Source: Pirellulaceae bacterium
Lineage (GTDB): Bacteria > Planctomycetota > Planctomycetia > Pirellulales > Pirellulaceae
Assembly: GCA_020852965.1 (NCBI GenBank)
Contig: JADYZV010000185.1
Coordinates: forward strand, 89,273 to 153,272
DNA length: 64,000 nucleotides
Direction: 5' to 3'
Part shown: positions 2,198 to 64,000 of the stretch, piece after piece
Numbering within the stretch: the stretch's first letter is position 1
How the letters are laid out: the number at the start of each line of letters is the position of its first letter
Position numbers and translations under genes: made by a program
Notes under the pieces: model-generated
What the model saw: only the letters and a program-made list of their open reading frames with translations
Database searches by the model: none
What the model was told of the DNA's origin: nothing

Positions 2198-2557
2198 GTT
2201 GAGGGATTACCTGAGAGTGTACGACGCGTTGAGCCAACGGATAGCCAAGCCCAAAGTTAACACAAAGCAATTCTACTCGCTCCTTTGCACAGTGCATTGA
2301 TTCAGAATTCCATCCTCAGACGTGGTTGTGGGAATGCGGGGGTTGGGTTGGGTTTGACGCTGAGCTCTCCGTAGCTACCGTCGCCAGAGGGAAGACGATA
2401 GACGGAAAAGGATTGGCAGGGCAAAAAAGTGCGGTTTCCGCGTTTATGGCCCTATAACTGGCCGAAGTGAATCTTTGCGAGCTTCCTGCAAGGCGTTACA
2501 CTGAGGACATTCGTGGTCGGAGATCTCGCTATCGTTTTGTTTGGAAACTAGGAAGCT

Positions 2558-5893: not shown

Positions 5894-5905
5894 CGGAATG
5901 TGCGC

Positions 5906-6198
5906 GGCCCCATGCCAGCTTGCCTGGCATGAGCCAGAGTTTTGGTTGTAGAGCGGCTCGACTTCCACAGCTCCCCTCGCCAGCTTGCCTGGCAGGGAGC
6001 AAAGTTTTGAAGTTAGAAATGAAATGAGTGGATATGAGATATCGCGAGTCCATCCCGCCCCAATCGCCGCCACCGGCGGCGATTGGGGCGGGATGGACGC
6101 CGGGGGGATGATGGGCGGCTGGCTAGCCTCAAAACTGATTCACCAGCGAGGCAAGCTCGCGGGGGTCTAAGAATCCAGATCGCGGGGGTCTAAGAATA
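5906..6198. repeat. Cluster of CTTGC-loop hairpins plus a 47-bp perfect palindrome
   Basis: 5906 GGCCCCATGCCAGCTTGCCTGGCATGAGCCAGAGTTTTGG; 5971 CTCCCCTCGCCAGCTTGCCTGGCAGGGAGCAAAGTTTTGA; 6050-6096 CCATCCCGCCCCAATCGCCGCC-ACC-GGCGGCGATTGGGGCGGGATGG; 6127 reverse-strand copy. Confidence 0.9.
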
Positions 6199-6200
6199 AT

Positions 6201-7196: not shown

Positions 7197-7211
7197 AAGG
7201 GGAGTTACACG

Positions 7212-7625
7212 ATGGCAGTCACATTAAAACGTGGACAAGTGCTAGCGGTGTTGAGTATGACGCCGCTAATCGATGTCGTGTTTTTGTTATTAATTTTCTT
7301 TCTAGTCGCGTCGCGCTTGAGCCAGGAGGATCGTGAACTCGATATCCCGCTACCCTCGGCAGCCAATGCCATGCCGATGACGGTCGAGCCCCAAGAGATG
7401 ATCGTCAACATTGATCAGGATGGTGCCATTGTCGTCAACAGCCAAACCTACGATGCTGAAAAGTTTGAACGCATGTTGGCGCAAACGATTGCCGACAATC
7501 CGCTCGGGCAATCCGTCTTGATTCGCGCCGATCGCCGCGTACCATTGCAGACCCCCGTCGACGTGATGGACATCTGCCTTCAATCCGGTGCGAGTTACTC
7601 CCTGTCGATCGCGGACGCTGAGTAG
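7212..7625 (+). CDS. ExbD/TolR family biopolymer transport protein
   Basis: MTPLIDVVFLLLIFFLVASRL TM motif with conserved Asp, adjacent to ExbB-like gene. Confidence 0.92.
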   Translation: MAVTLKRGQVLAVLSMTPLIDVVFLLLIFFLVASRLSQEDRELDIPLPSAANAMPMTVEPQEMIVNIDQDGAIVVNSQTYDAEKFERMLAQTIADNPLGQSVLIRADRRVPLQTPVDVMDICLQSGASYSLSIADAE

Positions 7626-7862
7626 CGGTTAAGTGAGCCAGTTTCTCCGGCAGAAGAGACGCGCGGCCGAAGAGTTGGTCTGTTTAACCGCTGAAAGCGC
7701 GGCCGCGCGGGTGATGTACCAACCGAAACGATCGGGCGGCATGGGGGCGGATGACGAACGCGACGTGCAGCCGTCAACTTGGTGCTAGCCTCACTCCGAG
7801 CGCTGACGCGGTTAAACAGAAACCGTCGTCGGCAGCAGTGACGCGCGGCCGATGAGTTGATT
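7625..7862. repeat. Intergenic direct repeat (~55 bp, two diverged copies) with an inverted GTTTAACCGC/GCGGTTAAAC pair between
   Basis: 7625 GCGGTTAAGTGAGCCAGTTTCTCCGGCAGAAGAGACGCGCGGCCGAAGAGTTG versus 7809 GCGGTTAAACAGAAACCGTCGTCGGCAGCAGTGACGCGCGGCCGATGAGTTG; inverted arms at about 7682 and 7805-7816. Confidence 0.6.
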
Positions 7863-7975
7863 AATAGGCGCGGTAGCGCTGGCGGGGTTGAGTTTCTATT
7901 GTAAATAAACGCAAAAAGAGTGGGACAAAGCCGACGGCAGAAGTTAGGGAGATTTCAGTTTGCGGCGAAGACTGT

Positions 7976-8695
7976 ATGAAGGTTTTGCGTACAGAAAGAG
8001 GCATCGAAGTGCTGGAGGTGATCAACGAAGACTATGCCTTCGTGCTCACGCGACCCAAGGATGGAAAATTCGCAGTCTCCGTATTGCAACGGAGGGGAGT
8101 TAGCTCATCAGTTGATCTCCTCATTAGAGAACAAACGAATACTGCTAGGTATTATCTTTTGGATGCCTACAGTTATTACGGAAGAACCGTGTGGGGGCTG
8201 GTTCAAGGCCCAGGCTTCAAGCTGATCAAGATCGAGGCGTTCACTGGCGATGATGGAGAAGTGCTAGTCCGGGTAGACTTCAACTACGCACCCGTGAACA
8301 AACCGTACGAGGGTATGAAAAGTATTGAGGACTGGACACTCAAGAATGCATACCTTATTTTCGCGCCGAAAAATGGCTGGAAGTTAATTGAGTACGGTAG
8401 GCCGGTGTGGCCGAGAACTATAGTGACCGTCACTGGTCATCCCAGCGATCAGCTTGGATTCACAGAAACTTCCGTTGCGAGGTTTATTGGAGAGGACGGA
8501 AAGGTCAAACGGGAGGATCGGATAAGCCGTGCGAAGTCGAGTTACGATCCGATTCCCAAAGAGGAATTCTATTTGCGACATTATGGTTTTCCAGAACCCA
8601 ATTTTGATACTTGGTTCCGATGGCCGTGGATACTCGGTGGCTTGTCGCTGGGAGCGGTCTGCATAATGGTTGCTCGCCGATGGTTACGCCGTTGA
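7976..8695 (+). CDS. Hypothetical protein with C-terminal TM helix
   Basis: 239-aa ORF with hydrophobic C-terminus (WPWILGGLSLGAVCIMVARRWLRR); no family recognised. Confidence 0.6.
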   Translation: MKVLRTERGIEVLEVINEDYAFVLTRPKDGKFAVSVLQRRGVSSSVDLLIREQTNTARYYLLDAYSYYGRTVWGLVQGPGFKLIKIEAFTGDDGEVLVRVDFNYAPVNKPYEGMKSIEDWTLKNAYLIFAPKNGWKLIEYGRPVWPRTIVTVTGHPSDQLGFTETSVARFIGEDGKVKREDRISRAKSSYDPIPKEEFYLRHYGFPEPNFDTWFRWPWILGGLSLGAVCIMVARRWLRR

Positions 8696-8719
8696 ATGCA
8701 ACATAGAAAATGCCACCAC

Positions 8720-8860
8720 GGACATTTGGCTGCCGCAGATGCCATCGCCTGCGCAGGCCGCGAGATTGGGTTGACAAACGCTGTGGTGCGTCAGAGCTCC
8801 ACCTGTTGATCGGCTCACCTTGTGCACCTGCGGCCTGCTGCGGCTCGGCGTTAAACGAAT
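8720..8860. repeat. Dispersed ~140-bp repeat, copy 1 (second copy about 18780-18925)
   Basis: TGGCTGCCGCAGATGCCATCGCCTGCGCAGGCCGCGA...CCTGCTGCGGCTCGGCGTTAAACGA aligns with the 18.8 kb copy over its length. Confidence 0.75.
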
Positions 8861-8880
8861 TTAAGTGAGTCGGCGCAATG

Positions 8881-11800
8881 CTACATCGCTGCAGTGTGGC
8901 TGGGGATGTTGGTGATGAAGAGTTCTTGAGGAGACAAATGCTGGCGGGCTAGGTTGACTAGGTGCTGATGGTGAGTGAAAAAAATCACCTGCGTGCGATG
9001 CGATAGCTCAGCCAACACGTGCAGTGTGGCTACAGAACGAGCGTCATCAAAGTTCATCAGGATGTCGTCAACAATCAGCGGGATCGGTTCGTGGTGTGAC
9101 AGCCAAGCTTCTAAGCTGGCCAAGCGCAGCGCCAAATATAATTGATCGCAGGTACCGTCGCTCATCCCTTCGACCAATACTCGAGTACCATTGCGAAGGC
9201 CAGCCAGTATGGGCTCTCCCTTTTCGTTGTATTCGGCTTGCAGACCGGAGTATTGCCCAAGGGTTATCTGCTGGAAGATCTGGCTGGCGCGACCGAGAAT
9301 CGGACCTTGGTTCTTTTCGCGATGTCGCTCGATGGCTGCTTTGAGTACGACGGCGGCTACACGGCGCACGGCCAGCGATTGCAGTTCGACCTCCAATTGC
9401 GCGGCGATACTTTCGCACTGGGCATTCGCTTCAGCGGCTCGGCTGCTTCCGTCGAATTTCTGTAGCTCGATCTCGGCGGCACGAATCTGTCCAATGACGG
9501 CATCGCGCTGCTCTTTCAATTCAGCCAATGTCTGCTCAGCGAGAGCCATTCGCTGTTGGAGCGATTGTTCGCAACTCAACTCTTTTTCCACTTCGGCTAC
9601 AAAGTCAGGCAAGGTGGCTCCGGCACAAAAACCGAGTATTTCGTCTTCTAATTCGCTGGCGGCCAGCTCGTGCTCGCGGCGCTCACGAGCTTGATCGGCT
9701 GCGGGGGCGAGTTGATCGTAGTCGCTGACTTGCGCTTGTCGCAGCATCTCGTCGAGCTGAATCTTGGCTTGTTCGCCGCGCTGCTGCGCTTGTTGGAGCG
9801 CCAGGGTCAATTCGGCTTGACGCGCGATCAAGCCTTTGTGCTCGCGGTCGGCCACGCGAGCTTGTTCCAATTGTTGGACTAGCGCGCTAAGCGCCTGTTC
9901 GGCCGGCAGCTTGTGCAATTCGGGGGCGATCGCGGCGCACAGCGAGGCTACATCGGTTGAAAACAATTGTGCATCGCGATCGATGTGCTGCAAGCGCGTG
10001 CGGAAGCGATCGACCTCCTTGAATTTGGAAAATAGATCTCCTAGCGTATCCAAGCGGTTGTTGGCTTGCTCGGGGAGTGCGCTCTGTTCTAAGCCCAGGC
10101 GTTCCATTTCACTGGCCCACTCGCTTTGCAAATCGCCCAATTCGGTTTCGAATCTAGCGAATTCGGCTTGAGCCGCAGCCAATTTGGCTCGATCGTCGCG
10201 CAGTTGATCGTTCCATTGCTCGTGGCGGCTGACCTGGCTGGTCAGTTCGGTGAGTTTATCATCGACCCATTGCGTTAATTCAAGCAACGCGGGTTGTTCC
10301 GCCTTCTTGGGAGAGGATGAATGGGGATTTCTGTTAGAGCTTACGGGATCCAGCGTGTCGCGTATCTGTTTCAGTCGCTGGGTCAATTCGGTTAGCTGCT
10401 TCCGCTTGTGCGTGCAGTCTGATTCGAGCTGTCGCAGTTGCTTGAGTTGCTGTGAGAGCTGGTCTAGTTGTCGTAGCCAGTCCTGCATTTCATCGGGAGC
10501 TAGCGGAGTGATACCCGTTGGAGTCCACAATGCCTGCCAACGTTGCTCGATTTCCGCTCGCTGCGATTGCGTCTGTTGAAGTTCTGCTTGTCGTTTGGCA
10601 TAGCGTGTAGAGATCTGGGCAAGATCGTTGTGCAGCTTAGCTTTGGTGGCTACGCGATTGGCGTCGGTTCGCAAGGCATCGGCGATTCGATCCGCTTCTA
10701 GGACCGCATGCTGATAGGCGCTAGTCAAATCGCTCGACTCAGGGAAGTTCTTCAAATAGTCATGCAGCGCGGTGTCGTCTGTGGTTTTAGATTCCCAAGT
10801 GGCAACGAACAGTTGCCAGCCATATTGTCTGAGTCGTCGCATGCGATCCAGTTCGGCCAGAGTGGGGACCGCTTGTCCCGATTCGAGCTGCGACAACTGA
10901 GCCGACAAGGCGTCGCGCTGCTGTTCATCTTCGGCTAGTGTGCGATTCAATGCCTGCAGTTGACCATCGGCGGTAGAGAATTCCGTTTCGAAACGGTCGA
11001 GGCTAGCTGAGGAGGGGAGCGGTAGACATTCCAACTCCGTCAATTGTCCGGAGAATAGTGGAAGTTTCTTGAGAGCCAATTCGACTTGACGTTGCATTTT
11101 GCCGCGGTCTGCTTCGGCTTGGTTCAGCTCCGCTTGCACGTCCCCTTGTTGTTGAACTGCGCGCAACGAGGCGCGGAGCGCGGGTAGATCGAAGGTGATT
11201 GGTTGGACGGATAGGCGTTGCTCGCCACTGCTGATGTCCAATTGAAGTTGTTCGCAATTTTTGCGTTGGGCTTGCAAGCGTTCGAGTTGCCGCTGGAGTT
11301 GAGTTCCTAGACTGCGGATCTTGACCGTTTTGTCTCGAGGCAGACGTAGTTCTTCGATGGTGGACAGGTCGGGGCTGCGATCGAGCTCGCGCATGAGTTC
11401 TTGAGCTTCGCTTTCGCTGTCTCGGCAGCGAGCTTCGACCGCAGGCCGATCTACGAGCGACTTGCGAATACCGCCAACTCGATCGCGCAGTGCTTCGATC
11501 GCGTCGAAGGCGGCGAGGATCGCCGGCGGCACGATCAGAGATTCCAATTGAGCTGCGATCTTCGCCAGTTCGGTAGTTGCACCACTGGATTGCATCTGAC
11601 CAGTTTTCAGTTCGAGCAGCAGCTCGTTTGTGTGTTTTGCAAAGTCGCCTTCTAAACGCGGCACGTGTGCCAGAAGCTGTAGTTTCTGTTTACGAGTCTT
11701 CCAGCGATCGATGGGTGCCGAGGCCGATTCGATGCGCTGTAGTCGAGTCAATTCAGCTTGGATTTGGCTGAGCTGCTGATCGAGCTCGGCCTTGCGCTGC

Positions 11801-12453
11801 CGTTGCTGTTGGTGCTGTTGGTCACAGGTTTTCCAAGTATCGACGGTCTCTTGAGCGGCCCCAACCGCTTTGCGATGTTCGAGGTAGTCTTGCAAGTGTT
11901 GCTGAATGGAACCGCTGCGGAGCGTACTTTTGAGCAGTGCGTCGGCCTCTGTTTGAAGGTCGTTTTGCAACTGCTGTAGATTGACGACGCCAGCTCCGGC
12001 GGCGAACAACAACTCTCCCAATCGCCCTTTTCCAGCAGCGATGTCCTGTCCCCCCTCGCGCAAACGATGGTGGTTAATTCCGAACATCGACTGGAAGAAC
12101 TCCTGGTCGACATCCCCCATGAATCGCAGCAGCGCATCGTCCGCAACAGGCTCTTGATCTTGGCCACAGCGCAGCGATAGCTTTTGAGCCTTGCGGCGCA
12201 CGGAGGTTAGCTGTGTGCCATCGCTGTGTTCTAAACGCGCGCCAACGCGTAGCGACTTGTAGGGATGCTGGAAATCGTCGGGAGTGCTTGAGGGAAAGCC
12301 GTATAGGAAATGAGTGATCGCGCGCAGCGATGAACTCTTCCCCGCCTCGTTGGGGCCGTACAGAATATGCAGCCCGTGCGAACCCGCCGACAAGTCGAGT
12401 TGACAATCGGTAAACGGCCCGAAGGCGATCAATTGGAGTTCAGCAATCTTCAC
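8881..12453 (-). CDS. YhaN-like AAA family ATPase (SMC/Rad50-type)
   Basis: N-term FGPFTDCQLDLS..HILYGPNEAGKSSSLRAI (Walker A), long coiled coil, C-term DGTCDQLYLALRLASLE...PLIVDDILMNFDDAR (signature and Walker B). Confidence 0.9.
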   Translation of the reverse strand: MKIAELQLIAFGPFTDCQLDLSAGSHGLHILYGPNEAGKSSSLRAITHFLYGFPSSTPDDFQHPYKSLRVGARLEHSDGTQLTSVRRKAQKLSLRCGQDQEPVADDALLRFMGDVDQEFFQSMFGINHHRLREGGQDIAAGKGRLGELLFAAGAGVVNLQQLQNDLQTEADALLKSTLRSGSIQQHLQDYLEHRKAVGAAQETVDTWKTCDQQHQQQRQRKAELDQQLSQIQAELTRLQRIESASAPIDRWKTRKQKLQLLAHVPRLEGDFAKHTNELLLELKTGQMQSSGATTELAKIAAQLESLIVPPAILAAFDAIEALRDRVGGIRKSLVDRPAVEARCRDSESEAQELMRELDRSPDLSTIEELRLPRDKTVKIRSLGTQLQRQLERLQAQRKNCEQLQLDISSGEQRLSVQPITFDLPALRASLRAVQQQGDVQAELNQAEADRGKMQRQVELALKKLPLFSGQLTELECLPLPSSASLDRFETEFSTADGQLQALNRTLAEDEQQRDALSAQLSQLESGQAVPTLAELDRMRRLRQYGWQLFVATWESKTTDDTALHDYLKNFPESSDLTSAYQHAVLEADRIADALRTDANRVATKAKLHNDLAQISTRYAKRQAELQQTQSQRAEIEQRWQALWTPTGITPLAPDEMQDWLRQLDQLSQQLKQLRQLESDCTHKRKQLTELTQRLKQIRDTLDPVSSNRNPHSSSPKKAEQPALLELTQWVDDKLTELTSQVSRHEQWNDQLRDDRAKLAAAQAEFARFETELGDLQSEWASEMERLGLEQSALPEQANNRLDTLGDLFSKFKEVDRFRTRLQHIDRDAQLFSTDVASLCAAIAPELHKLPAEQALSALVQQLEQARVADREHKGLIARQAELTLALQQAQQRGEQAKIQLDEMLRQAQVSDYDQLAPAADQARERREHELAASELEDEILGFCAGATLPDFVAEVEKELSCEQSLQQRMALAEQTLAELKEQRDAVIGQIRAAEIELQKFDGSSRAAEANAQCESIAAQLEVELQSLAVRRVAAVVLKAAIERHREKNQGPILGRASQIFQQITLGQYSGLQAEYNEKGEPILAGLRNGTRVLVEGMSDGTCDQLYLALRLASLEAWLSHHEPIPLIVDDILMNFDDARSVATLHVLAELSHRTQVIFFTHHQHLVNLARQHLSPQELFITNIPSHTAAM

Positions 12454-12480
12454 GGTGATTTCTATATATGGTTTTGAAGT

Positions 12481-12590
12481 ATTGGACCCCTGTGAGCTTG
12501 CCTCACAGGTGAACGAGTTTTGGAGCTAGATGCGTTCGCCATAAGCATTGGACCCCTGTGAGCTTGCCTCACCGGTGAACGAGTTTTGGA
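12481..12590 (+). repeat. Two CTTGC-loop hairpin repeats (66-bp spacing)
   Basis: TTGGACCCCTGTGAGCTTGCCTCACAGGTGAACGAGTTTTGGA at 12482 and a near copy at 12548. Confidence 0.9.
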
Positions 12591-12625
12591 AATAGATCGA
12601 GGGCCTCACCAACGCCCCCATTTTT

Positions 12626-12660
12626 CCATCCGCTCGCCACCTCAGGTGGCGAGCGGATGG
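12626..12660. repeat. Perfect palindrome, 16-bp arms, 3-nt loop
   Basis: CCATCCGCTCGCCACC-TCA-GGTGGCGAGCGGATGG. Confidence 0.9.
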
Positions 12661-12804
12661 GAAAGTGGTAAGGCCAGGGTGTTTTAAACGTGCTCTACTC
12701 ATAAAACTTGGCTCACGCCAGACAAGCTGTCATGGGGCCGATGCGGAATCGAGATGTATGGTATAGCGAGCCGCGCGGGAGGGTAGCTTACAATTTGATT
12801 TAAT

Positions 12805-14133
12805 TTAAGGAGGTGAATCTGTAGTGCCGTGTTGCAGACGGTGAGTCAGCAGGGATTCGGCTTGGGACAATACTCCGGCCAGCCAGTCATCGGCTTGGGG
12901 ATCGTCTTGATCAGCGGCCTGAGTGAAGTTGAGTGTGCCGGGTTTTGTGGCCGCTCCTACGAGGCTCTTTAATTCGGGGGGGAGCTTGTTGATCACTGGC
13001 TGGAAATCAAAGCCGAGCGCATCGAGCTGCTGAGGCTGTGTGCGCAGTTGAGCGAAGAGTTCGGTTAGCTCGCCCAGGGCGGCTTCGTCAATCATTGGAG
13101 TCGTACCGCCGCGAACCGGCAAGCTGGTGTGCAACTTTACTTTTTCAATCCACAGTTTTCCTTGGCCAATGTCGAGCGCGAGGCCACGCACTTGATGGAT
13201 CCAGTGATCTTGGTACGCTTGCAGTTCACGATGCAGCTTGGTGGCTCCCACGAGTTCGACCCGTACGGCCAGCGGCTTGCTTTCTGAACCGAGCACTAAT
13301 CGCGAGAGGTGACCGCTGACGCAACTGAGTACGTCATCGGAATGCTGGACGGAACTGACGTCTACTTGGGCAGTCTCCCAACGCATGACATCGAGCGGAT
13401 GAAAAACCGGTTCCAAACGACGATCATCGTGCACGGTAACAACGTAGCATCCCTTGGGGCCGCTCTCGCGAATATGCCTCCCCTGAATGTTGCCGGAAAA
13501 GGCGACAAACGGATCTTGGCAAAGAACTTCGCGCTTGTGAATATGCCCCAAGGCCCAGTAGTCGTAGCCTTTGAGCTTAAGCCCGTCGAGCGAACAGGGA
13601 GAGTAGCGATCGTGCCCTTCGCGGCCTTCGGCGCTGGTGTGCAAGAGGCCGATGTTCAAGCACCCTCGCTCGGCGGCTGGATAGGCTTGCGACAGATCTT
13701 CGAGTACACACTCGGTTGCGAAGCTCTGTCCATGAATGGCCACATCGAGCGTTTCCAAGTGGACGGTTTGTGGTTTTTTGTGCGATAGGAGCGTGACGTT
13801 GTCCGGGAGCGGTAGAGATCGCGTCATCTTGTTGGCCGCGTCGTGATTGCCCGCGATGAAGATTAGGGGGATGTCTGCTGCGCGCAGTCGCGTGGCCTGC
13901 TGGACAAAGTACATACCGGTCTGGAAGTTTTTCCAGTCACCGTCATACAAATCGCCGGCGATAAGTACAAATTGGACTTGTTGCTCGATTGCCAGATCGA
14001 CCAAGTTGCTCAGCCCCTCGCGCGGGGCCCGACGAATTTCGTCGACGGGTGCTCCTTCGTACCGCTGCAAGCCCTTGAGCGCGCTGTCTAAATGAATATC
14101 GGCGGCGTGGATGAATTTGAAAATGGTGAACAG
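12805..14133 (-). CDS. YhaO-like DNA repair exonuclease (Mre11/SbcD metallophosphoesterase)
   Basis: ORF track (TTG at 14070) misses motif I; in-frame upstream reads (L)FTIFKFIHAADIHLDSALKGLQRYEG. Also VLIAGDLYDGDWKN, IAGNHDAANK, ALGHIHKRE. Pairs with YhaN-like gene downstream. Exact start uncertain (no ATG/GTG/TTG before the motif). Confidence 0.85.
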   Translation of the reverse strand: MFTIFKFIHAADIHLDSALKGLQRYEGAPVDEIRRAPREGLSNLVDLAIEQQVQFVLIAGDLYDGDWKNFQTGMYFVQQATRLRAADIPLIFIAGNHDAANKMTRSLPLPDNVTLLSHKKPQTVHLETLDVAIHGQSFATECVLEDLSQAYPAAERGCLNIGLLHTSAEGREGHDRYSPCSLDGLKLKGYDYWALGHIHKREVLCQDPFVAFSGNIQGRHIRESGPKGCYVVTVHDDRRLEPVFHPLDVMRWETAQVDVSSVQHSDDVLSCVSGHLSRLVLGSESKPLAVRVELVGATKLHRELQAYQDHWIHQVRGLALDIGQGKLWIEKVKLHTSLPVRGGTTPMIDEAALGELTELFAQLRTQPQQLDALGFDFQPVINKLPPELKSLVGAATKPGTLNFTQAADQDDPQADDWLAGVLSQAESLLTHRLQHGTTDSPP

Positions 14134-52007: not shown

Positions 52008-53662
52008 ATGGTGGGAGGTGGCCGCAATGAAAAGGAAGAACTTCAAACGGCAATGGAAGTAATCAAAGCGTCCACGGAAGAGCTCCAACAGCTCAAGAAC
52101 GAACTCTCGAAAGTCAACGTCCAGCTTCTGGAAAAAAACGCTGAACTGAGTCGAAACAACAGCGACATCGAAAACCTGCTGGTAAGTATGAAAATATCCG
52201 CATTGTTTCTCGATGAAGATTTGTGCATTCGAAGATTTACAACAGCGATCGAGGATCTGTTGCCCTGTTCATCGTCAGACGTGGGTCGACCAATTGCCGC
52301 AATGTCCGCTCGCTTCGTCGATCACTCTATGGTGCAGCAATGCCAACAAGTACTGCGAAGTTCACAGCACCAGGAACGTGAGGTCACCCTCGACGACGGG
52401 AGAACCTTTCTTCGCAGAATCTACCATACCAAACCGTTGACGATGGTGTCTGCGGTGTAGTGTTGACGTGGGTGGATATCACCGAACGCAAGGTGGCGGA
52501 GTCAGAACTTGCCGATCACCAGCAGCGGTTGCAAGCGATTTTGCAGACGGCTTCGGATGCGATCGTCACCACGAATTCAACCGGTGTGATCGAGACGTTA
52601 AATCCCGCCATGGCGCAGATGTTCGATTGGCCGGCTGACGAATTGATCGGTAGCAGCTTTCTAAATCTGGTCAGCGCTCTGTCGAGGCTTGAGTTTGAGG
52701 AACTCCTCTTGCATTGCGACAGACTTTCTGACGAACATCAAAAGTTGGGTATTAGCGAGGTGACTGGTCATCGACGCGACGGGCGACAGTTCCCAGTCGA
52801 AATCACGGTTTGTTCCAAGGACCATAGTGGGTTCTTCACATTCATCCTTCGCGATATTTCCACCCGGAAAGTGCTACGGAAGAAATTGCTTGAAATCGCT
52901 GATGATGAACAGCGGCGAATCGGTCAGGAACTACATGACGGAACTCAGCAGGAATTGACCGGACTTTTGTTGCTCGTCGGTTCGATTATCAGCCGATTTG
53001 AATTCGCTCTACCCAGTGCCGTCGATACAATCCGAGCGGAAGGTAGCCCGGGCTGGATATTGGCTGACTCCGATTACATGCAAATCAACGATGCACTACA
53101 GAAACTAGTTCGCGGCTTGAATTCAGCCTGCCAACACGTGCGAGAGATTTCACACGGCATTACGCCACTGCAGATCGCAAAAGACGGACTGTGTGCCGCA
53201 TTGGAAAAGCTGGCACAGTCGATCGATTCCCCCCCGTCGATCCATTGTCGATTCCATAGCCATGGACTTGCTGCGCTCCCAAGCAACACAGTAGCCATTC
53301 AACTGTACCGTATCGTACAAGAAGCCGCACTTAACGCGGTCCGACACGCCAACCCTACGCAGATTGCCATTTCGTTCACCTGCCTCGAAGGTGGGATAGA
53401 CATCGAGGTCAGTGACGATGGACAGGGTTTCGAGATACCCAAACAATCCAATCAGTATTCTGGCAGCGATGGAATAGGGCTGACGATCATGAAATTCCGT
53501 GCCAATACGATCGGTGGCGTGTTGAACATCGAGCGCAACGACACGGGTGGCACCACGGTTCGAGTATCGCTTCCGGTAGGATTACTGGACAATGAAAAGG
53601 GTACGCTCCCCGACGAGAAGCGTGCTCGCAGACGGTCACCTCCCCGTTTTCCGCGAGAATGA
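52008..53662 (+). pseudogene. Frameshifted, 5'-truncated PAS-histidine kinase derived from a CheB/CheR-PAS hybrid
   Basis: ORF 52008-52460 ends ...RIYHTKPLTMVSAV*; next frame reads TVDDGVCGVVLTWVDITERKVAESEL and continues to a HisKA_3/HATPase (RRIGQELHDGTQQELTGLLLLVGSI). N-term STEELQQLKNELSKVNVQLLEKNAELSRNNSDIENLL is typical of the CheR-PAS junction. Confidence 0.8.
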
Positions 53663-53870: not shown

Positions 53871-56800
53871 AAGATGAATCCGTTGCCTATAAAACTGGAG
53901 AGATCGAGCGTTCAACTCCATCCAGAAACGCTCGGGCTGGACGCGCTCGAATTCAATTCGAAAAGCTGGAGCAGCGTTTACTGTTCGCTGCCGACTTGCT
54001 GCTGCATGAAGCTGACTTGGACTACATTGGAGCTTTCCGAGTCCCCCAAGGGAAAATTGGCAATGTGGGACAGGCCACTTTTGGCTACGGTGGAACTGCG
54101 CCAGCTTATAATCCAACCAACAACTCACTGTTCCTCGTCGGCCATGACTACGATCAAGCGATCGCCGAAATATCCATTCCGGAGATTATCGATACCAACC
54201 AAATCAGTAATTTGCGAACCGCCTCCTTGCTGCAACCGTTTTCGGCGGTCCGCTCACGTATACCTGACTTCACCCTCAGTGGTGAAACAAAAATTGGTGG
54301 GTTACAAGTTGTCGACAATCAACTCGTTGGTACGTTTTACGAGTACTACGATGCGAACGGAGACGCAGTCGACTCACACTTTAAACTTGACTCACTCAAC
54401 TTAGCATCTGCCAATGTTAGTGGCCTGTATCAAGTAGGCAACTATGGGGGTGGTTTCGTTGGTGGCTACATGACACCGATCCCTGAGGAGTGGCAGGCCG
54501 AATTGGGCGCTCCTTACCTGACTGGCCAAGCCGCGCTGTCGATCATCAGCCGGACTTCGGTGGGCCCGGCCGCCTTCGGTTTTGATCCAGCCCAGCTAGG
54601 TAGCGCAACTGCGCCCGCTACGAATTTGGTTAGCTACCCACTCGCGCATCCACTGCGCCCAGAGACCAGCACCAATCCGCTATTCAATCTGACGTCTAGG
54701 ATAACTGGTGTCGTCATGCCGCCGAACACAAGCTCCGTAATCTTCTTTGGATCGCATGGTACCGGCGAATACTGCTATGGCACCGAGGTCGAGTGCAACG
54801 ATCCGGTCAAAGAATCCAAAGGGACCCACTCGGTGGGCGGACTGTATGAGTACCAAGCCTGGGCCTATGACGTTCATGATTTAATTGACGTCAAGAACGG
54901 CTTGAAAGAATCCTGGCAAATACAGCCCTACGATGTTTGGACATTTGATCTACCGATGGGGGGAGCTCGAAAGGAAATTGGCGGAGTCGCCTTCGATTCG
55001 CAATCGGGACGTATCTACGTGTCACAACAGCTTGTGGACGGAAACGGCAACTATCCGATCATCAACGTCTTTCAGTTACCGACGGGACCATCTACTCCAA
55101 CTGGTCCGACGATTAGCAGCATCCAAACCGAGAGTGTGGTCGAGAATTCAGCAGTAATTCAATGGAACACGAATGTGCCGACTACCGGCCGCATCGAATA
55201 TGGCGTGACTTCAAGTCTGGGAAGCACATCGACCAGCAGCGCGGCCCTCGCTACGTCCCACTCGGTCACGTTGAGCGGCTTGCTGCCCGACACCTCCTAT
55301 TCCTTTCGTATTCTTGCTCAAGACGCGAACGGTGTAGAAACCGATTCCAGCCTTGGTACGTTCCAGACCTCAGCCGATCCAACTCTCCCCAGTTCGTCAA
55401 TCTTTTCGTATTCCAATCCTCGACCGCTGGCAGCTGCAGACCCAGCCACTACGGTCAGTGTCAACAATGTCAATCAGTTGATCGCCGCGGTCAATCAACT
55501 GCAATCGGGACAGACCATTCAAATCGCTCCAGGTACCTATAATCTGAATGGAGTAACCGACGCGCTGTACATCCCTCAGGGCATTTCGAATTGGGCGATT
55601 CGCGGTTCGACCGGCAACCGCGACGACGTCATTATTCGCGGTGGTGGAATGAACGGCTCAGTATCCTTCGGGTTTTGGGTCGGCAATAGTACCCAAGGCA
55701 CCTTTGCGGACTTCACCATCGACGGCATACGTGAACACGGCATCATCGCCAATCCAGGGGCTCACGATATTCTCTACCATGGGTTACGAATGGTCGACAT
55801 CGGCGACCAATTCATCAAGTCCAATCCCGCCTCCGCAGGCCAAGGAAATGACCGAGGAATCGTGGAGTATTCCATCTTCGAGTATCGCGCTACGGCACCG
55901 GATAACTATACCAACGGTGTCGACGTTCACGGTGGTGACGACTGGATCGTGCGCTACAACTTGTTCAAAAACTTCATCAGTCCAGCGGGTCAACCGATAG
56001 CCGGACCATCGGTGTTGTTCTGGAACGGCAGTACCAATACGCGCATCGACAGCAATACGTTCATCAATGATGCCAGGGGAGTATCGTTGGGGTTGGAGGA
56101 CAAACCCGGTACATTCGACCACCGGGGTGGCACAATCACCAACAATATGTTCTACCGTGCCGCTGGATTGTCCGGCACTATCGATGTTCCCATCTATGTG
56201 GCGGACTCACCCGACACTACAATTTATTACAACACCGTGTTTGATCAGGGAAACTATCCCAATGCGATTGAGTATCGGTACGCCTCGACGAACAATATGG
56301 ACGTTCGCAACAACCTGGTCAACAAGGCCATAGTTGCTCGCGATGGTAGCTCAGGTACAGTCGTCAACAATGTGACAACGGCTACGGCTACCATGTTTGT
56401 CAACCCAGCTGCGGGGAATCTACATTTGCAGTCAACGGCGACCGCCGCCATCAACCGTGGTACTGCAGTTGGCGTGGTACGTGACCTCGATGGTCAACTG
56501 CGCGACGCACAGCCCGACATCGGCGCCGACGAGTTTCTCGCAACGACAAATCCAAATCAAGCCCCGATCATCTCCAACCAGTCGTTCTCGATCAATGAGA
56601 ATGCGACTAATGGGACGGTGGTGGGAACCGTGGTTGCCAGCGATCCCGAAGGCCAAGCTCTGACATACTCTATCCTCTCCGGGAATACAAACCACGCCTT
56701 TGCGATCAACGCCAACACAACTGGGCGACCGGGATTCTAAAAGAGTCTCGACGCGGCCTAGCGTATGGGCTCTACGTATCGGACGATCACTCTCTGCCTG

Positions 56801-57417
56801 CCGTCTATGTCAATCTTGGAGGTTCTGATTTGAACGCGACGAGCAGAACGGCTCTTCCACTTGACACCTGGTCGCATCTAGCGGCCACGTTCGATGGTTC
56901 GAAATTAAAACTGTTCGTCAACGGAATCCAAGTTGCTGAGCGACGCGCTGTGGGCTCGGTAATTCAAACCAATTCGCCATTGCGAATGGGAGCAAACTCC
57001 GTGTGGGGAGAGCATTTCGATGGAACTATGGACGAAATTCAACTTTTCAACGCCACCTTGACTGCAGCGGAAATTGGCCTGTTGGCGGCGCCTAGCTCTC
57101 AAATAACTGCTCGTGCAAATGCGCATGCAGCGCCCTTGGAATTCGCCTCCTATGGGGTTGGAGCACGTTGGTCCGCAGGAGAATCAGTAGCCGTCACCAG
57201 CGAACTCTTGATGGATGCAACCACGGGGCCCAACTCTACAGACTATCCGGCCATTATAGACCAAGTGTTTTCAGGAAACCTGGACATGGATCTAGATGGT
57301 TTGTCACTATTGCGGAACCAAGCTGCGGACGCCGACGATCTATATTCTCAACTAGCTCTGGAAACTAATCTACTTGCCAGGTTGTATGGGCGTTGCGTCA
57401 ACCCCGCGCATCGCTGA
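53871..57417 (+). pseudogene. Frameshifted planctomycete-type surface protein: LEPR-XLL-like N-terminus, FN3, parallel beta-helix, cadherin-like and LamG parts
   Basis: Frame of ORF 53996 reads upstream as ARIQFEKLEQRLLFAADLLLHEADLDYIGAF without a start; ATG at 53874 is in another frame. Cadherin-like part ends ANTTGRPGF* at 56740, next frame reads WATGILKESRRGLAYGLYVSDDHSLPAVYVNLGGSDLNATSRTALPLDTWSHLAATFDGSKLKLFVNG (LamG). Confidence 0.75.
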
Positions 57418-57836
57418 CCGATTCAATGCACCGAGAGAGTACATCCACAGCATGGCCTGATAGCGATCGTTATGGTACCCCTGGTAGTCATTGCGAGAAT
57501 CAAAGCCAAATTTGTCTTTGAATTCGGCTGCGGACCCATAGAAACATCCCTCCCCCTCGTCGACGGCGAAAGTTCGGGAACCTTGATCAGGCCAACATGC
57601 GTTGGGTCTTGCGCATGCGTAACGACATATAGCGCATCGCGATCCTCACGGTAGCCGATAATTCCCATCGAGTAGTCGAAACGCGTATTCAGGGGCTCCT
57701 CCCATGTCCCATGCATCGGGATGTCAAAACTCCCTAGGTATCTTAGCTGGCTCTCCTGAATGAGAGGCTGATCGGCCGCCACTTGGCCTAGTAGTACCCA
57801 GCCGACCATGTGTGTAAAAGCTGCTACGGTAAACAT
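57378..57836 (-). pseudogene. Frameshifted secreted-protein remnant related to the N-terminal domain of the 53996 ORF
   Basis: MFTVAAFTHMVGWVLLGQVAADQPLIQESQLRYLGSFDIPMHGTWEEPL...IKVPE, then frame change to FAVDEGEGCFYGSAAEFKDKFGFDSRNDYQGYHNDRYQAMLWMYSLGALNRSAMRGVDATPIQPGK*. Confidence 0.75.
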
Positions 57837-57851
57837 GAGAACATCCTACTT

Positions 57852-59849
57852 TCAAAACTGAATTGCATTTGAAGTTTCTGGAAAACCTCGATCTGAAGAT
57901 TTTTCGTTGGATTCTTTTTGTGAATTCGTCGAAGGCGTCACCCTCAAGCCCTCACCATCGATGTAGTCTCGATACCATTGTTCCAGACACATCAAGTTCC
58001 AAATCTTATCGCCATGGTTCCAACGCCCGCTTTCGTGTTCGCAGACCAACGCCCGGATGGCAGTTGATTGAAAGTAGCCGCGTGCGAGCGCAGTGTCTGA
58101 CAACAGTACGTCGCGTACCATCGACTTGAGCGGACCACGGAACCAAGCGTTGAGCGGGACACAGAATCCCATCTTTGGACGAACCTGTAGCTGACGAGGA
58201 ATCATTTGAGCGAAAGTATGTGTGAGCATCGGTTTGGGGACCGAACCATCTTGGTGGCGACAGAAGGGAATCGCCAAAGCTCGTTCCACCACCCGATGAT
58301 CCAAAAAAGGGCTTCGGCACTCTAGGCCGTGAGCCATGCTGGTAATGTCGACCTTTGCGAGTAGATCCGACGGAAGATAGGTCTGCAGGTCGGCTTGCAT
58401 CGCTCGTGAGCTCGGTGATCTGTTTGAACATTGCAACTTTTCAATCAACCAGTCCTCGGGGGTATCTCGAAGCTGGCGACGAAAGTCGACGGACAACAAT
58501 GCGTTTCTACCTACCTGATGAAAGTAGGATACCCAGTGGATGTAACGTTCGTTCGCAGGCCTCCTGAGAAGGCTCATCCTGAATCGCAACTTAGCCAATT
58601 TGGCAAGCTGTCCGTCTGAGCCAGGTAACCACTGCCAAGCCGAGTTAGCCACGACGCTGCGCACGAACTTGGGCAATCGATCAAACTGTCTCAAACGCTC
58701 AATCGTATGATAGCGAGGATATCCGGCGAACAATTCGTCCCCTCCGTCACCGGTGAGCGCAACCTTTACGTAGGCCCGTGTCGCTTTCGCCAAGCCGAAG
58801 GTTGGAATGGCGGAGCTATCCGCAAAGGGTTCGTCGAAATGCAACGTTAGCGTCTGCAACAGATCGGCCGAGGATGGAGTTACTGCCAGTTCTTGATGGT
58901 CTGTTCCTAAATGCACGGCAGCTTGCCGGGCGAAAGGCGTTTCGTCGAATGCCGCTTCTTGGAATCCCATCGAAAACGTCTTGGCCGGATGAGGCAATAA
59001 CTGTTGCATCAATCCAACAATAACGGTCGAATCCATACCGCCAGAAAGAAAGGCCCCAATGGGTACATCGCTTCGCAAACGCAAGCGTACTGCTTGTTCC
59101 AGTTCGTCTCGTAGTTGTTCACGCAATTCATGCACCGGCTGCTCTGATTCGAATTTCCAGTCGGGTTGCCAATAACGTTCGATACTTAATCGTCCGCACC
59201 GATAGATCGCAAAATGCGATGGTGGAAGCTTCTTAATTCCGCAGAACATTGTGCGAGGGTGCGGGACATACCCGAAGGTGAGATACTGATTGAGCGCCTC
59301 TATGTCTACCTCGCGGCGAATTCCTGGTGCATGTTGTAGGATCGCCTTGATCTCGCTGGCAAACAGGAGTTGGTCATCCACATGGCGATAGACCAGCGGC
59401 TTTTGCCCCATTCGGTCCCGTGCCAAGAACAGAACTTGTTGTCGAGCGTCCCAGATGGCGAATGAAAACATCCCGCGAAGCCGGTGAAGGCATTGAGGCC
59501 CGAGCTCTTCGTAGAGATGAACAATGGTCTCAGTATCGGTATCGGTTTGAAAGCAATGACCGCGAGCCTGCAATTCGTGCCGCAGCTCTCGGTAGTTGTA
59601 GATTTCCCCATTGAACGTAATCCATACCGTTCCGTCTTCATTGGCAAGTGGTTGTCGCCCTCCCTCCAGGTCAATGATGGCGAGACGACGATGGCCCAAT
59701 GCAACCCCCGTGCCGTTTGGATTCTGCTTGGCGTAGGTGCCGCGCCCATCCGGTCCGCGATGTCGCAATACGTCTGTCATTGCGTCGAGCGTCTGAGCCG
59801 AAATGCTCCGCCGCTTCTCATTCCACACAACACCAACAATACCGCACAT
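57852..59849 (-). CDS. asnB: Asparagine synthase (glutamine-hydrolyzing)
   Basis: MCGIVGVVWNEKRRSISAQTLDAMTDVLRHRGPDGRG; SGGMDSTVIVGLMQQ; LTGDGGDELFAGYPRY; GLECRSPFLDHRVVE. Confidence 0.96.
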   Translation of the reverse strand: MCGIVGVVWNEKRRSISAQTLDAMTDVLRHRGPDGRGTYAKQNPNGTGVALGHRRLAIIDLEGGRQPLANEDGTVWITFNGEIYNYRELRHELQARGHCFQTDTDTETIVHLYEELGPQCLHRLRGMFSFAIWDARQQVLFLARDRMGQKPLVYRHVDDQLLFASEIKAILQHAPGIRREVDIEALNQYLTFGYVPHPRTMFCGIKKLPPSHFAIYRCGRLSIERYWQPDWKFESEQPVHELREQLRDELEQAVRLRLRSDVPIGAFLSGGMDSTVIVGLMQQLLPHPAKTFSMGFQEAAFDETPFARQAAVHLGTDHQELAVTPSSADLLQTLTLHFDEPFADSSAIPTFGLAKATRAYVKVALTGDGGDELFAGYPRYHTIERLRQFDRLPKFVRSVVANSAWQWLPGSDGQLAKLAKLRFRMSLLRRPANERYIHWVSYFHQVGRNALLSVDFRRQLRDTPEDWLIEKLQCSNRSPSSRAMQADLQTYLPSDLLAKVDITSMAHGLECRSPFLDHRVVERALAIPFCRHQDGSVPKPMLTHTFAQMIPRQLQVRPKMGFCVPLNAWFRGPLKSMVRDVLLSDTALARGYFQSTAIRALVCEHESGRWNHGDKIWNLMCLEQWYRDYIDGEGLRVTPSTNSQKESNEKSSDRGFPETSNAIQF

Positions 59850-59870: not shown

Positions 59871-60593
59871 TCAACCAATGGATGGAGACGATTGCGGAAC
59901 GACACACCTACGCGGACCTGGCAAACTCGATCCGTAGGCAGCCACCTGCTTTACGACGCGGGCGGGCACACCAATGGCGATGCAGTGAGCCGGGATCGGT
60001 TTCGTGACTACGGCTCCCGCTCCGACAATCGCACTGATGCCAACGTCCGCCATGACAATGGCTCCAGCTCCAATCCAAGCTCCGTTTCCGATCCGCACTC
60101 GATGATAGATTTGCGGCTGCATATGCATTGTCTCGCCTGGATTGGCAGGTCCATGCTCTCTGCCGCCGCTTAGGATTTGCACGTGGTCGGCCAGCATGAC
60201 CTCTTCCCCGATTTCAGCGAATCCGATGGAGCAGAAGCGTCCGATGTATGCGCGATTGCCGACGCTGGCCTGCGGCATAGAAACAACACTCAGCCACCCA
60301 AAATGTACGTCCTGTCCACAATGCGAGATCGTCCAACGATAGAATGCTTGGCGAGCCAATACGCCGCGCATTCCCGGTATGCGCGCGATCGACTCGCTCG
60401 CCAGTCGAAACGCTTCGTCCCCCATAATCATGCGCATTAGACGCATGACTCCCAGACGCGGCAATGCGCATAGCGCAAATGCCGTCTGCAAACAACGCTT
60501 GGCCAGTAGGAATGTCGTGGTACGAGGCTGCCGCAGCTTAGTGATGAAATCAGCTTGCGTGGGAGATTGCATGGGACTGATCGACCTAGGCAA
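59871..60593 (-). CDS. Hexapeptide-repeat acyltransferase (WcaF/polysaccharide type)
   Basis: VGNRAYIGRFCSIGFAEIGEEVMLADHVQILSGG; RIGNGAWIGAGAIVMADVGISAIVGAGAVVTKPIPAHCIAIGVPARVVK. Confidence 0.9.
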   Translation of the reverse strand: MPRSISPMQSPTQADFITKLRQPRTTTFLLAKRCLQTAFALCALPRLGVMRLMRMIMGDEAFRLASESIARIPGMRGVLARQAFYRWTISHCGQDVHFGWLSVVSMPQASVGNRAYIGRFCSIGFAEIGEEVMLADHVQILSGGREHGPANPGETMHMQPQIYHRVRIGNGAWIGAGAIVMADVGISAIVGAGAVVTKPIPAHCIAIGVPARVVKQVAAYGSSLPGPRRCVVPQSSPSIG

Positions 60594-61365
60594 GTGCGTG
60601 CAGTTCGTCGATCAATCGCTTTAAAGCGTCCCGTTGAGGTCCCTCGCCGGCGATTCGCAGGACGCATCGGAGTCCGTCCGAATTCAATTCTGCGACTGCG
60701 CGAATCAGTAGATCAAAGCCTTTTTCGATCGAGAGCCGTCCCATCGCGCCCACAACTAGCGCCTGGCCGGACGAACTGCGTGAAGCCAAGCGTGGCGTTG
60801 CACATTGGAAGGCATCGACGTCAATGGCGTTAGGGATCAGATGGCATCGCGGAGGGGGAACACCACATTTCAAACACGACTTGTACAAATCGTCTGAAAC
60901 GCAGATCACCGCATCATACCGCGATAGGCAGCAGCGGTCGATCGCGTAGTAAATCGGTGTTCGGCTAGTATGTTCAACCCAACCATGAACGGTCGTGACC
61001 AACTTTAGTGGGCAGAATTGGGTCACGATCAGCCCCAATGCGTTACTTTTGTAATCATGTCCATGCCAGATGGCCACCTTTCGCTGACGGCAGTGACGGA
61101 TCAATTCCGTCAGGACGCGCCAATCCCATGCACCTCGATCGGCGATCGAGATCAATTCTGCTTGGGCTTCTGCAGCGCGCTGCCGTAGTCGCTCGAAGCC
61201 CTGGTCGGCAGGAGGGTGCATGTAGGCGCACGAGCAGCGATAGCCTAATGGACGTAGGAAACGCGGTGAATGGAGAATCGTTTTCTCAGGTCCTCCGCCG
61301 TAGCCAGTTACCCCTCTGACGTGAAGCACCAGTGGGCAGCGATCATCTGTGTTCAATTGCAGCAT
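60586..61365 (-). pseudogene. C-terminally truncated GT4-family glycosyltransferase
   Basis: LVLHVRGVTGYGGGPEKTILHSPRFL...VAIWHGHDYKSNALGLIV...IPNAIDVDAF...VVGAMGRLSIEKGFDLLIRAVAEL...RIAGEGPQRDALKRLIDELHALA*; ends before the expected EGxxxxxLEAMA region. Confidence 0.8.
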
Positions 61366-63763
61366 AACCTTCACGCACCGTATCTTGAATGCAAGACCAG
61401 TCAAAGCGGCTGACGACGAAGTCGCGCGCGGCCCTACCCAGCGCGCGCCTTCGATTTGGGTCTGCCAAAAGTTCGTCCACGCACCTGGCAAAATGCGCGG
61501 GAGAATCTGCCAAGAGCAACTCCTTCCCATCGGTGACGGGAATACCTTCCGCGCCTCTCGAAGTCGACACCACGGCTTTCCCCATCGCAAACGCTTCCAA
61601 AATCTTGAGTCGAGTGCCACTCCCTTGCTGGAGCGGTACTACAAAAAGTTGGCTTTGATGCACGAAGGGACGGACGTCATCCACTTCACCAATCACTAGG
61701 ACTCGTTGCCCATCATGCAGCGCGCGAACTCGAGCTGCAGGGCGACGACCAACAATTCGCAGCTTCACTCCACTCGTGCCGATTCTTGGCAGCACGTCTT
61801 TACAGAAAAATGCCATTGCCTGTTCGTTCGGAAAATAGTTCATGGCACCTGTGAAAATCAGTGAATCCTCTTCCTCGTAGTGGCCGAGTTGCGGTTGGAA
61901 ATACAGGCAGTTCACTCCATTGGCGGCTACTCTGTAGACGGCCTTGGAGCTCATTTCAACGCGTGACCAAGGCAATCCTTCGTATTGAACCAGAGCGGTG
62001 CGAACGCAGTTGCCTACTGCGACAACTCGATCGCATCTTCCGAGCAACATTTTGTTAGCCCATACTCGTTTAGCGCGCCGATAGTCAGGGTAGTCACGGC
62101 CATGCTCGGTGAACACGATGGGAAATCGCAATCGCAATATGCGAGCCATCGACGAATAGAAGAAAGCCGCATATTGATGCGCATGAACCAACTTCACATC
62201 GTGCAATCGAAAGAACGCCGCCAGTTTGCATACGCAGCGAGCGTCAAATCCCGGCTGTCGATCAAGAACAACTATTTCAAAGCCCGCCGCGCGCATTTCT
62301 GATCCCATGGATCCCAGGGCGTCTAAGCATGCGATGACGACTCGATACGTATCCTGACAACGTTCCGCAAAAGCTCTGGCGAGTAATTCGGCTCCTCCCA
62401 CATTGAGAGAGTGCAAAACGTGGCACAAGGTCGTTTCGATATAACCCTGTTGAAGAGCAATCCCCAGGGGGCGGGTGCAGTTACGAGTCGGGAATGCCAT
62501 CAACTGTTGCCAAGCCCTATCGAGCAGATCTTCCCCGCGCCTGCGAAAGGCGTTGTGCTGCTTCATGGTTGTGGCGAGTTGAGCTGCGCACAAAAGGACA
62601 TTCCCTTTTCGCAAGTCTTGAGCGGCCCAAGTCTCGGTAGGGTATTCCAACTGCGATGCCTTATCTAGATAGAGTTGTTCGTTGGTCGTCATCCAGTCTG
62701 CATAGTGCAATAGTGCCGCTCGACAGTATTCTCGACATGCTGAAAACTCACCTACGCCTGTGGTGAGCTGCCAAACTCGTGCAAGACTCTGCAGTTGAAC
62801 GGTGTACGACCATCGCCGTTCGACATCGAGAAACTGCTTGGAGTCTAATTCGTCATAGGGATGAATTGTCCGCCGAATCAGCTCTTCCGCCTTCCAGAGA
62901 TGCTGCCTGTCTCCACTGACTAGCCAGCCGTCCATCAGGCAATTGATCGAGTTGCCAACCCCACGACCAGGCAGGTGGTCTTCAGGCGACCGCGTGCAAC
63001 TTGCCGCTCCCGTCGGCGATTCGCTGACGACTCCCAAAAGGTGCTGTGACCCATCGTCCATGACTGCGACCCACTTGGCCAATTCGAGCACGGCTTCCCG
63101 CGCTCGCCGATCTCCCGTCAGGTAGTAGTAAAGTAGTAGCCCCGAAGAATAGTTGTGCTCGTTCGATGGACCTCCGCCTTGAGTTGGACTTGCTTTGCCA
63201 TTCATTTTCCTGGAGTAACTTCGATGGCCGCTGGTCGCTGCGTCTTGATAGTGGGCGGTGTGCCAGAACAGCCCTCCCGAATAGGCTGATTTGTCCTGAT
63301 CCGTATGATATATATCGATGTCCATGATGTGCCGCGCCAAAGGCTCTGCCAGTTTCCACCAACGGACATCTCCGCTCCCCAGGTAACAGATCAACATACT
63401 GTGCAGCAGGTCATATTGATTGTTGTTGTGAGAGATTACCGGTTTGGTTCCTTGATAGTGAAGGTTCTCGTGATCTGCCCAACTATCTCCGTAATTGCGC
63501 CAGCCGTACTCGTCAATCTCCTCTCGTTTAGCGAAGAAACAGTGCTTTCCTTCTAAGGCCTCCGACATCAAACACCGAAGCTCATTGCGATGTGGCATCG
63601 TGGGGGAAGTGAAAAACGAGATCGCACCACATTCAGCAATCGATCGTGGATCAAGAGTCACCTTGAGCGGCGAATGCGTCCAATCCAATGCAGCATGAGA
63701 CGAACTCCCCCCCAGTCCGAACTGAAGCCAAACGTCGCGAGTCCACTCCGGGATGTAGCACAC
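61343..63763 (-). CDS. Chimeric ORF: central barrel of a PcRGLX/RIFT-barrel-like protein + GT4 N-terminal part + C-terminal part of another GT4 glycosyltransferase
   Basis: WRNYGDSWADHENLHYQGTKPVISHNNNQYDLLHSMLICYLGSGDVRWWKLAEPLARHIMDIDIYHTD...; then TLCHVLHSLNVGGAELLARAFAERC...; then SLIFTGAMNYFPNEQAMAFFCKDVLPRI...VVPLQQGSGTRLKILEAFAMGKAVVSTSRGAEGI. Confidence 0.75.
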   Translation of the reverse strand: MCYIPEWTRDVWLQFGLGGSSSHAALDWTHSPLKVTLDPRSIAECGAISFFTSPTMPHRNELRCLMSEALEGKHCFFAKREEIDEYGWRNYGDSWADHENLHYQGTKPVISHNNNQYDLLHSMLICYLGSGDVRWWKLAEPLARHIMDIDIYHTDQDKSAYSGGLFWHTAHYQDAATSGHRSYSRKMNGKASPTQGGGPSNEHNYSSGLLLYYYLTGDRRAREAVLELAKWVAVMDDGSQHLLGVVSESPTGAASCTRSPEDHLPGRGVGNSINCLMDGWLVSGDRQHLWKAEELIRRTIHPYDELDSKQFLDVERRWSYTVQLQSLARVWQLTTGVGEFSACREYCRAALLHYADWMTTNEQLYLDKASQLEYPTETWAAQDLRKGNVLLCAAQLATTMKQHNAFRRRGEDLLDRAWQQLMAFPTRNCTRPLGIALQQGYIETTLCHVLHSLNVGGAELLARAFAERCQDTYRVVIACLDALGSMGSEMRAAGFEIVVLDRQPGFDARCVCKLAAFFRLHDVKLVHAHQYAAFFYSSMARILRLRFPIVFTEHGRDYPDYRRAKRVWANKMLLGRCDRVVAVGNCVRTALVQYEGLPWSRVEMSSKAVYRVAANGVNCLYFQPQLGHYEEEDSLIFTGAMNYFPNEQAMAFFCKDVLPRIGTSGVKLRIVGRRPAARVRALHDGQRVLVIGEVDDVRPFVHQSQLFVVPLQQGSGTRLKILEAFAMGKAVVSTSRGAEGIPVTDGKELLLADSPAHFARCVDELLADPNRRRALGRAARDFVVSRFDWSCIQDTVREGYAAIEHR

Positions 63764-63870
63764 GGATCTGTGCCTCGGGCAATCGCCATCGCTCGCGAAG
63801 CAATTGGGCCGTGTTCCGGCTGTTGGCGATGCAGTACTCGGCCTTGGCCAAGACGCGCTTCACTAAAAAA
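63651..63870 (-). pseudogene. Fragment of a further GT4 glycosyltransferase, adjoining an IS-like terminus
   Basis: VKRVLAKAEYCIANSRNTAQLLRERWRLPEAQIRVLHPGVDSRRLASV then out-of-family tail. Confidence 0.65.
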
Positions 63871-63873
63871 GTA

Positions 63874-64000
63874 TGTCATTTTGCGCTTTAAACGGGACCA
63901 TCATTTTGCGCTTCAAACGACACCAGTTTTGGTCGTTTGTTGAATAAGCTTCGATTTGGTATCGTTTGCCCGCCTTGGTCTACTCTATTCTTCGGCAGGC
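63874..64000. mobile_element. Probable end of an IS21-like insertion sequence (rest beyond window)
   Basis: TGTCATTTTGCGCTTTAAACGGGACCATCATTTTGCGCTTCAAACGACACC: terminal TG and duplicated internal TCATTTTGCGCTTYAAACG subrepeat, typical of IS21-family ends. No transposase visible. Confidence 0.4.

Follow-up and report, generated by a model that had tools for sequence, protein, structure and literature searches.

The closest described counterparts of the locus reported here are the XrtA/PEP-CTERM (EpsH) clusters (PMC1569441), and its glycosyltransferases (GTs) and amidotransferase are of the types known from them (TIGR03087 or stp1, TIGR03088 or stp2, and the TIGR03108 amidotransferase). Deletions that fuse fragments of neighbouring genes are also a described class (PMC12803068, preprint 2026), and in the Mycobacterium tuberculosis complex such fusions appear not to be immediately functional (PMC12803068). 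In bacterial pseudogenes, short indels and premature stop codons rank with the most frequent lesions (PMC2916853). We analysed a stretch of 64,000 nucleotides (the window) from a Pirellulaceae bacterium (contig JADYZV010000185.1, here C185; G000:C185:89273-153272), the right edge of which is the contig end. Towards that edge, and on a second contig, C68, the genes of a surface-polysaccharide locus are truncated or joined to one another. We consider it likely that this is an ordinary exopolysaccharide operon decaying in place, and that the chimeric genes are accidental by-products.

At least 10 deletions, each of roughly 0.1–1.8 kb, are spread over about 26 kb of sequence (leftward to ~52 kb in the window, plus C68); the sizes are approximate because they were taken from the parent genes of relatives. 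In same-family genomes these parents stand in the order G1 (GT4), PcRGLX-like protein, G2 (GT4), G3 (stp1-like GT4), G4 (GT4), acyltransferase, asnB and a protein of 372 amino acids (aa). Intact collinear parents occur in G153 (C66) and G079 (C286/C184), and in part in G032, G164 and G233. The neighbours in G153:C66 are a PcRGLX-like protein of ~920 aa, G2 (421 aa), G3 (403 aa), G4 (410 aa), the acyltransferase (236 aa), asnB (658 aa), the 372-aa protein and a convergent surface protein of 1231 aa. All of the window segments map to the G153/G079 parents in the same order and on the same strand, mostly at 45-65% identity over thousands of codons, a collinear match far beyond chance. Because the segments are collinear with the parents, the patchwork reads as one operon from which pieces were removed. 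The genes truncated in this way are G1, PcRGLX, G2, G3, G4 and those for the 372-aa protein, an ABC ATPase and an epimerase. A circular permutation or tandem duplication had been suggested by the order in G032 (G1-acyl-asnB-PcRGLX-...-G4) and was dropped, since G153, G079, G233 and G189 carry the order of the window.

The first-pass annotation of this DNA described an in-frame chimera of 806 aa made of PcRGLX, GT4 and GT4 parts. The list of open reading frames (ORFs), a segment-wise search with Pfam and NCBIfam hidden Markov models and the alignments to the parents all agree with this description. The searches resolved three separate family segments, namely PcRGLX_3rd at residues 38-155, a GT4 N-domain at 455-603 and an stp1-type GT4 C-domain at 574/634-790 (the TIGR03087 match spans 574-790), and the alignments place the joins at residue 443/444 and at about 604-609. 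The chimera and its parts are as follows.

61343-63763, minus strand: the 806-aa ORF, taken from the ORF list (PcRGLX, then the N-half of G2, then the C-half of G3).
62435..63742, minus strand: PcRGLX-like toroid segment (PF21346), parent residues ~398/432-849 of ~900-931.
62429..62440 (62.434 kb), minus strand: join J2, an in-frame deletion (~0.3 kb in G153) of the PcRGLX C-tail and the G2 N-terminus.
61955..62434, minus strand: G2 GT4 N-terminal domain (PF13439), parent residues 35-~204, aligned to G2 of G032, G153, G164 and G233.
61937..61954 (~61.945 kb), minus strand: join J3, an in-frame deletion (~1.25 kb in G153) of the G2 C-domain and the G3 N-domain.
61343..61936, minus strand: C-terminal domain of G3 (stp1/TIGR03087-like GT4), parent residues 206-396 of 403, 58.6% identical to G3 of G153.

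The PcRGLX segment is 44-56% identical to proteins of G032, G153, G164 and others (tblastn). The loss of its N-terminal half had been recognised correctly; what remains is the C-terminal alpha/alpha toroid and not, as first proposed, the central RIFT barrel, and the last ~80 parent residues are gone together with the N-terminal ~400-430. At J2, ...QQGYIE is joined to TTLCHVLHSL where the parents read QQCYIEMYFV and PTICHVLHSL. At J3, ...RVEM is joined to SSKAVYRVAANGV (on the G3 side, ...YRVAANGV), and in G153 the genes G2 and G3 adjoin. The 806-aa ORF is therefore a deletion-born fusion, an open frame across two deletions that join genes whose parents are adjacent in G153. The missing N-terminal pieces of PcRGLX and G3 had no counterpart elsewhere in the assembly. 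A scan of genome contigs returned distant partial matches only.

If the short and fused forms were instead the old, normal architecture of this lineage, open reading frames would be expected, and beyond these frames we found nothing that speaks for native mosaic genes. Searches with the 806-aa protein covered 241 same-family genomes and 40 relatives. No full-length homologue with the same architecture, which the first-pass annotation had named as the result that would contradict it, was found in either set; the parts matched there as separate genes of normal length, and the same-genus genomes had no PcRGLX match. An ancient mosaic is thus scarcely credible. Two apparent natural PcRGLX-GT fusions, in G233 (1301 aa) and G222 (1237 aa), each proved to be two ORFs split by a stop codon that the search tool had read through.

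Upstream of the chimera, the locus is interrupted by an insertion sequence (IS) at the end of the contig.

63720..63869, minus strand: G1 GT4 fragment, parent residues 138-187 of ~385-386, 50% identical to G1 of G079.
63720..63745 (~63.73 kb), minus strand: join J1, a frame-changing deletion (~1.8 kb in G079) from G1 residue ~187 to PcRGLX residue ~398.
63874..64000, no strand assigned: end of an IS21-like element at the contig end, beginning TGTCATTTTGCGC.

The GT4 fragment is cut at an IS-like end, as had been noted; the homology covers 63720-63869 only and not the whole of 63651-63870. In G079:C286, G1 (385 aa) sits 45 bp upstream of PcRGLX, and J1 removes the C-part of G1 and the N-half of PcRGLX. 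The homology of both genes covers ACTCGCGACGTTTG, about 14 nt, which may be a short microhomology. When the genome was searched with full-length G1, residues 1-142 were found at C68:537-115 (52% identity), adjoining the opposite IS end, TGTCACGTTGCGC, at the start of C68. Since two parts of G1 adjoin opposite IS ends on C185 and C68, the gene was split by the IS21-like element, and the upstream portion of the locus lies on C68. We checked the assignment to the IS21 family and saw both ends and two repeats; the interior of the element was not found among the assembled contigs.

The first ~14 kb of C68 (L115, positions 1-14000 of G000:C68:1-20000) hold this upstream half, with at least four further deletions relative to G153. 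A surface protein of 2060 aa is joined at residues 298|656 and an epimerase-like protein at 207|253. An oxidoreductase is fused in frame to an acyltransferase (12991-13776). The polysaccharide ABC ATPase (8216-8971) is joined in frame at 114|285, and its ATP-binding core is gone. As the ATPase core, the G4 donor domain and a segment of the epimerase are lost, this locus could scarcely produce or export the original polymer, judging from the families concerned.

Downstream of the chimera the following features were identified.

60601..61365, minus strand: N-terminal part of G4 ('GT344', GT4), parent residues 3-258 of about 410-412, 57% identical to G153 and G032.
60570..60603 (~60.59 kb), minus strand: join J4, a ~0.46-kb deletion between G4 residue ~258 and the start of the acyltransferase.
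59871..60593, minus strand: hexapeptide acyltransferase (PF00132), intact, 55-64% identical to the parents over most of its length.
57852..59849, minus strand: asnB-type amidotransferase (XrtA-associated, TIGR03108-like), intact, 61% identical to G153 over 631 aa.
57403..57836, minus strand: remnant of the 372-aa protein 3' of asnB (tblastn of the G153 parent), residues 27-89 joined to 261-320.
53879..57417, plus strand: remnant of the convergent 1231-aa surface protein (tblastn of the G153 parent), parent residues 44-960, then 1024-1146.
52008..53662, plus strand: CheB/CheR-type PAS fragment, then a PAS histidine kinase, with a frameshift between them at ~52460.

The G4 ORF has its natural start at 61365 and a stop at 60586, lacks the C-domain and overlaps the acyltransferase ORF by 8 bp; the ORF coordinates bear out the earlier account of a GT4 at 60586-61365 without its last part, and asnB is of full length as stated there. 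The parent G4 extends for 150 residues more, and its stop overlaps the ATG of the acyltransferase. In the 372-aa protein, join J5 (~57579; 89|261) has lost ~0.5 kb out of frame, the segments overlapping by ~7-10 nt, and the last 60 residues are lost as well (~57.4 kb). The surface protein lacks its N-terminal 43 aa, and a join near 56.7 kb leads from a cadherin-like repeat to LamG with a change of frame (Pfam fn3/cadherin and Laminin_G_3). The PAS fragment is an open frame of 151 aa; its homologues, two of them in this genome (C24 and C40), are mostly 900-1,700 aa long. On its left side, the decayed region may end at this remnant and the kinase beside it. Genes for a gamma-carbonic anhydrase, a nitroreductase and a transaldolase to the left of them look intact. 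At least four joins had been reported within 3.3 kb; that many are present, and they are not confined to this interval, with more at ~57.4, ~57.58, ~56.7 and ~52.0 kb and on C68.

It could be that selection has kept a working hybrid glycosyltransferase here, either the whole 806-aa protein or its G2N-G3C part. The frame is retained at both J2 and J3. J3 lies no more than ~8 residues from the corresponding position in the GT-B fold, so that the N-domain of one GT and the C-domain of its neighbour make up a complete two-domain enzyme. In an AlphaFold model of the chain both Rossmann-like GT halves are formed (mean pLDDT 72, pTM 0.52, with a shallow alignment of 13 sequences); the overall score is middling, and the model is compatible with a working hybrid as well as with a non-working one. 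We counted ten coding joins (J1-J5, the 56.7-kb join and four on C68). The frame is kept at four of them (J2, J3, the oxidoreductase-acyltransferase and the ATPase), against 3.3 expected by chance (binomial P(≥4) about 0.44), and this chance level gives no hint of selection for chimeras. In addition, the start and promoter side of PcRGLX are gone, the upstream G1 is broken by the IS, G4 and the ATPase of the ABC exporter have lost catalytic parts, and none of the genomes searched has the architecture. We therefore hold selection for a hybrid to be very improbable. The first-pass annotation had spoken of deletion-driven domain shuffling; the unspliced, adjacent parents support deletions in a surface-polysaccharide locus, whereas the in-frame count, the loss of catalytic parts at most of the joins and the IS argue against anything constructive. 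A literature search for hybrid glycosyltransferases arising in polysaccharide loci found nothing direct.

Several observations weigh against decay in place. The joins are known from the assembly alone. Decay usually gives many small lesions, whereas here deletions dominate and there are about 2 small ones. The 7,338 retained aligned codons contain a single in-frame stop, which lies in the weakest of the alignments (31% identity); the frameshift at ~52.46 kb comes in addition. If small lesions were as frequent as large ones, the probability of two or fewer small lesions out of 12 would be about 0.02. The broken genes resemble their G153 parents (mostly 50-65% identity) no less than the intact asnB and acyltransferase do, and the deletions would thus need to have occurred recently and in a cluster. 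A recent burst, or possibly an assembly error, would fit the excess of large deletions. Elsewhere in this genome, two GT4-like stretches match with in-frame stops (L082, G000:C32:310-1203; L083, G000:C73:50705-51658) and may be pseudogenes of the more usual lesion type.

Under an assembly error, the assembler would have merged contig ends at a poorly covered locus, dropping 0.1-1.8 kb each time, and the strain may keep an intact operon. In favour of this are the large number of collinear deletions and the near absence of small lesions. Several joins show short overlaps of about 4-14 nt, and those of ~7-14 nt resemble short-overlap merging; the affected region also lies at contig ends. However, five contigs (C185, C187, C109, C108 and C155) end exactly 126-127 bp inside one IS21-like terminus, with 126-127 bp in common up to the contig end. 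These ends suggest that a k=127 graph was used for the assembly, and with exact 127-bp overlaps at the IS boundary the joins should require spanning reads. The 1-1.8 kb deletions are probably longer than usual paired-end inserts. The damage also follows one functional locus, itself hit by an independent IS insertion, over two contigs, whereas the other loci of the window (0-51.9 kb) have normal gene length and domain coverage in matching families, and the other polysaccharide clusters (C190 and C155) have genes of normal length. We consider an artefact unlikely on balance. Contig C155 (L118) has a copy of this IS21-like element at its start, and its GT cluster looks normal. The GC content of the affected region (0.52-0.56, against 0.55-0.58 upstream) shows no sharp break. 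No long direct repeats that might have caused the joins were found at 51.9-63.9 kb, and a same-genus comparison of the flank found only single conserved genes at ~70% nucleotide identity and no sister copy of the locus.

The collinear order, the missing parts, the IS flank and the loss of the ABC ATPase core are observed. For decay in place, we infer loss of function, the order of events and their mechanism as follows. A complete XrtA/PEP-CTERM-like operon would have become non-functional in this strain and then have eroded in situ. An IS21-like element would have inserted into G1, and at least ten deletions would have removed internal pieces while gene order and strand were kept. The 4-14 nt overlaps at several joins suggest illegitimate recombination at microhomology. 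Two deletions, in frame by accident, would have produced the 806-aa ORF by bringing the PcRGLX toroid together with the acceptor domain of G2 and the donor domain of G3; joins at which the frame was not kept would have left the truncated G4, 372-aa protein and surface protein. The asnB and acyltransferase genes would be whole by chance or because they have not yet been hit. A bolder version, in which a burst of kilobase-scale, microhomology-flanked deletions, confined to the cluster within a short time, also made a hybrid GT-B enzyme (G2 acceptor, G3 donor) that still folds and possibly has a new specificity, seems to us improbable. On the reading as decay, the locus would offer a worked case, with intact parents, of a polysaccharide cluster eroding through internal deletions with in-frame chimeras as by-products. 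Annotators should be cautious not to take the 806-aa PcRGLX-GT4 protein for a real multidomain enzyme. If the joins are real, a mutational pattern in which large deletions outnumber small lesions deserves an explanation.

We compared the locus with the known systems. The bit scores against the curated cut-offs (stp1, 180.8/316.65; stp2, 88.3/409.05; eps_aminotran_1, TIGR03108, 635.1/816.9) are those of related proteins, all below cut-off. In contrast to the XrtA/PEP-CTERM clusters, the locus is broken by deletions and an IS and has no exosortase inside; a search for PF09721 found none in the decayed cluster and placed it only on C155 and C117 (G000:C117:4266-7218). The segment at 62435-63742 matches both the domain of PcRGLX-like proteins (PF21346) and the full-length homologues in the operons, from which it differs by its missing ends. 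Compared with the fusions of PMC12803068, there are many small deletions in one locus here, and hitch-hiking spread on an adaptive deletion is a feature of the case in that paper. Pseudogene erosion with a deletional bias (PMC2916853) shares with this locus the piecewise loss of non-functional genes and IS insertion; the lesions that prevail here are large deletions, whereas short indels and premature stops belong to the most frequent ones there. A decaying cluster with deletion-born fusions is of a known kind, and the lesion spectrum is its unusual feature.

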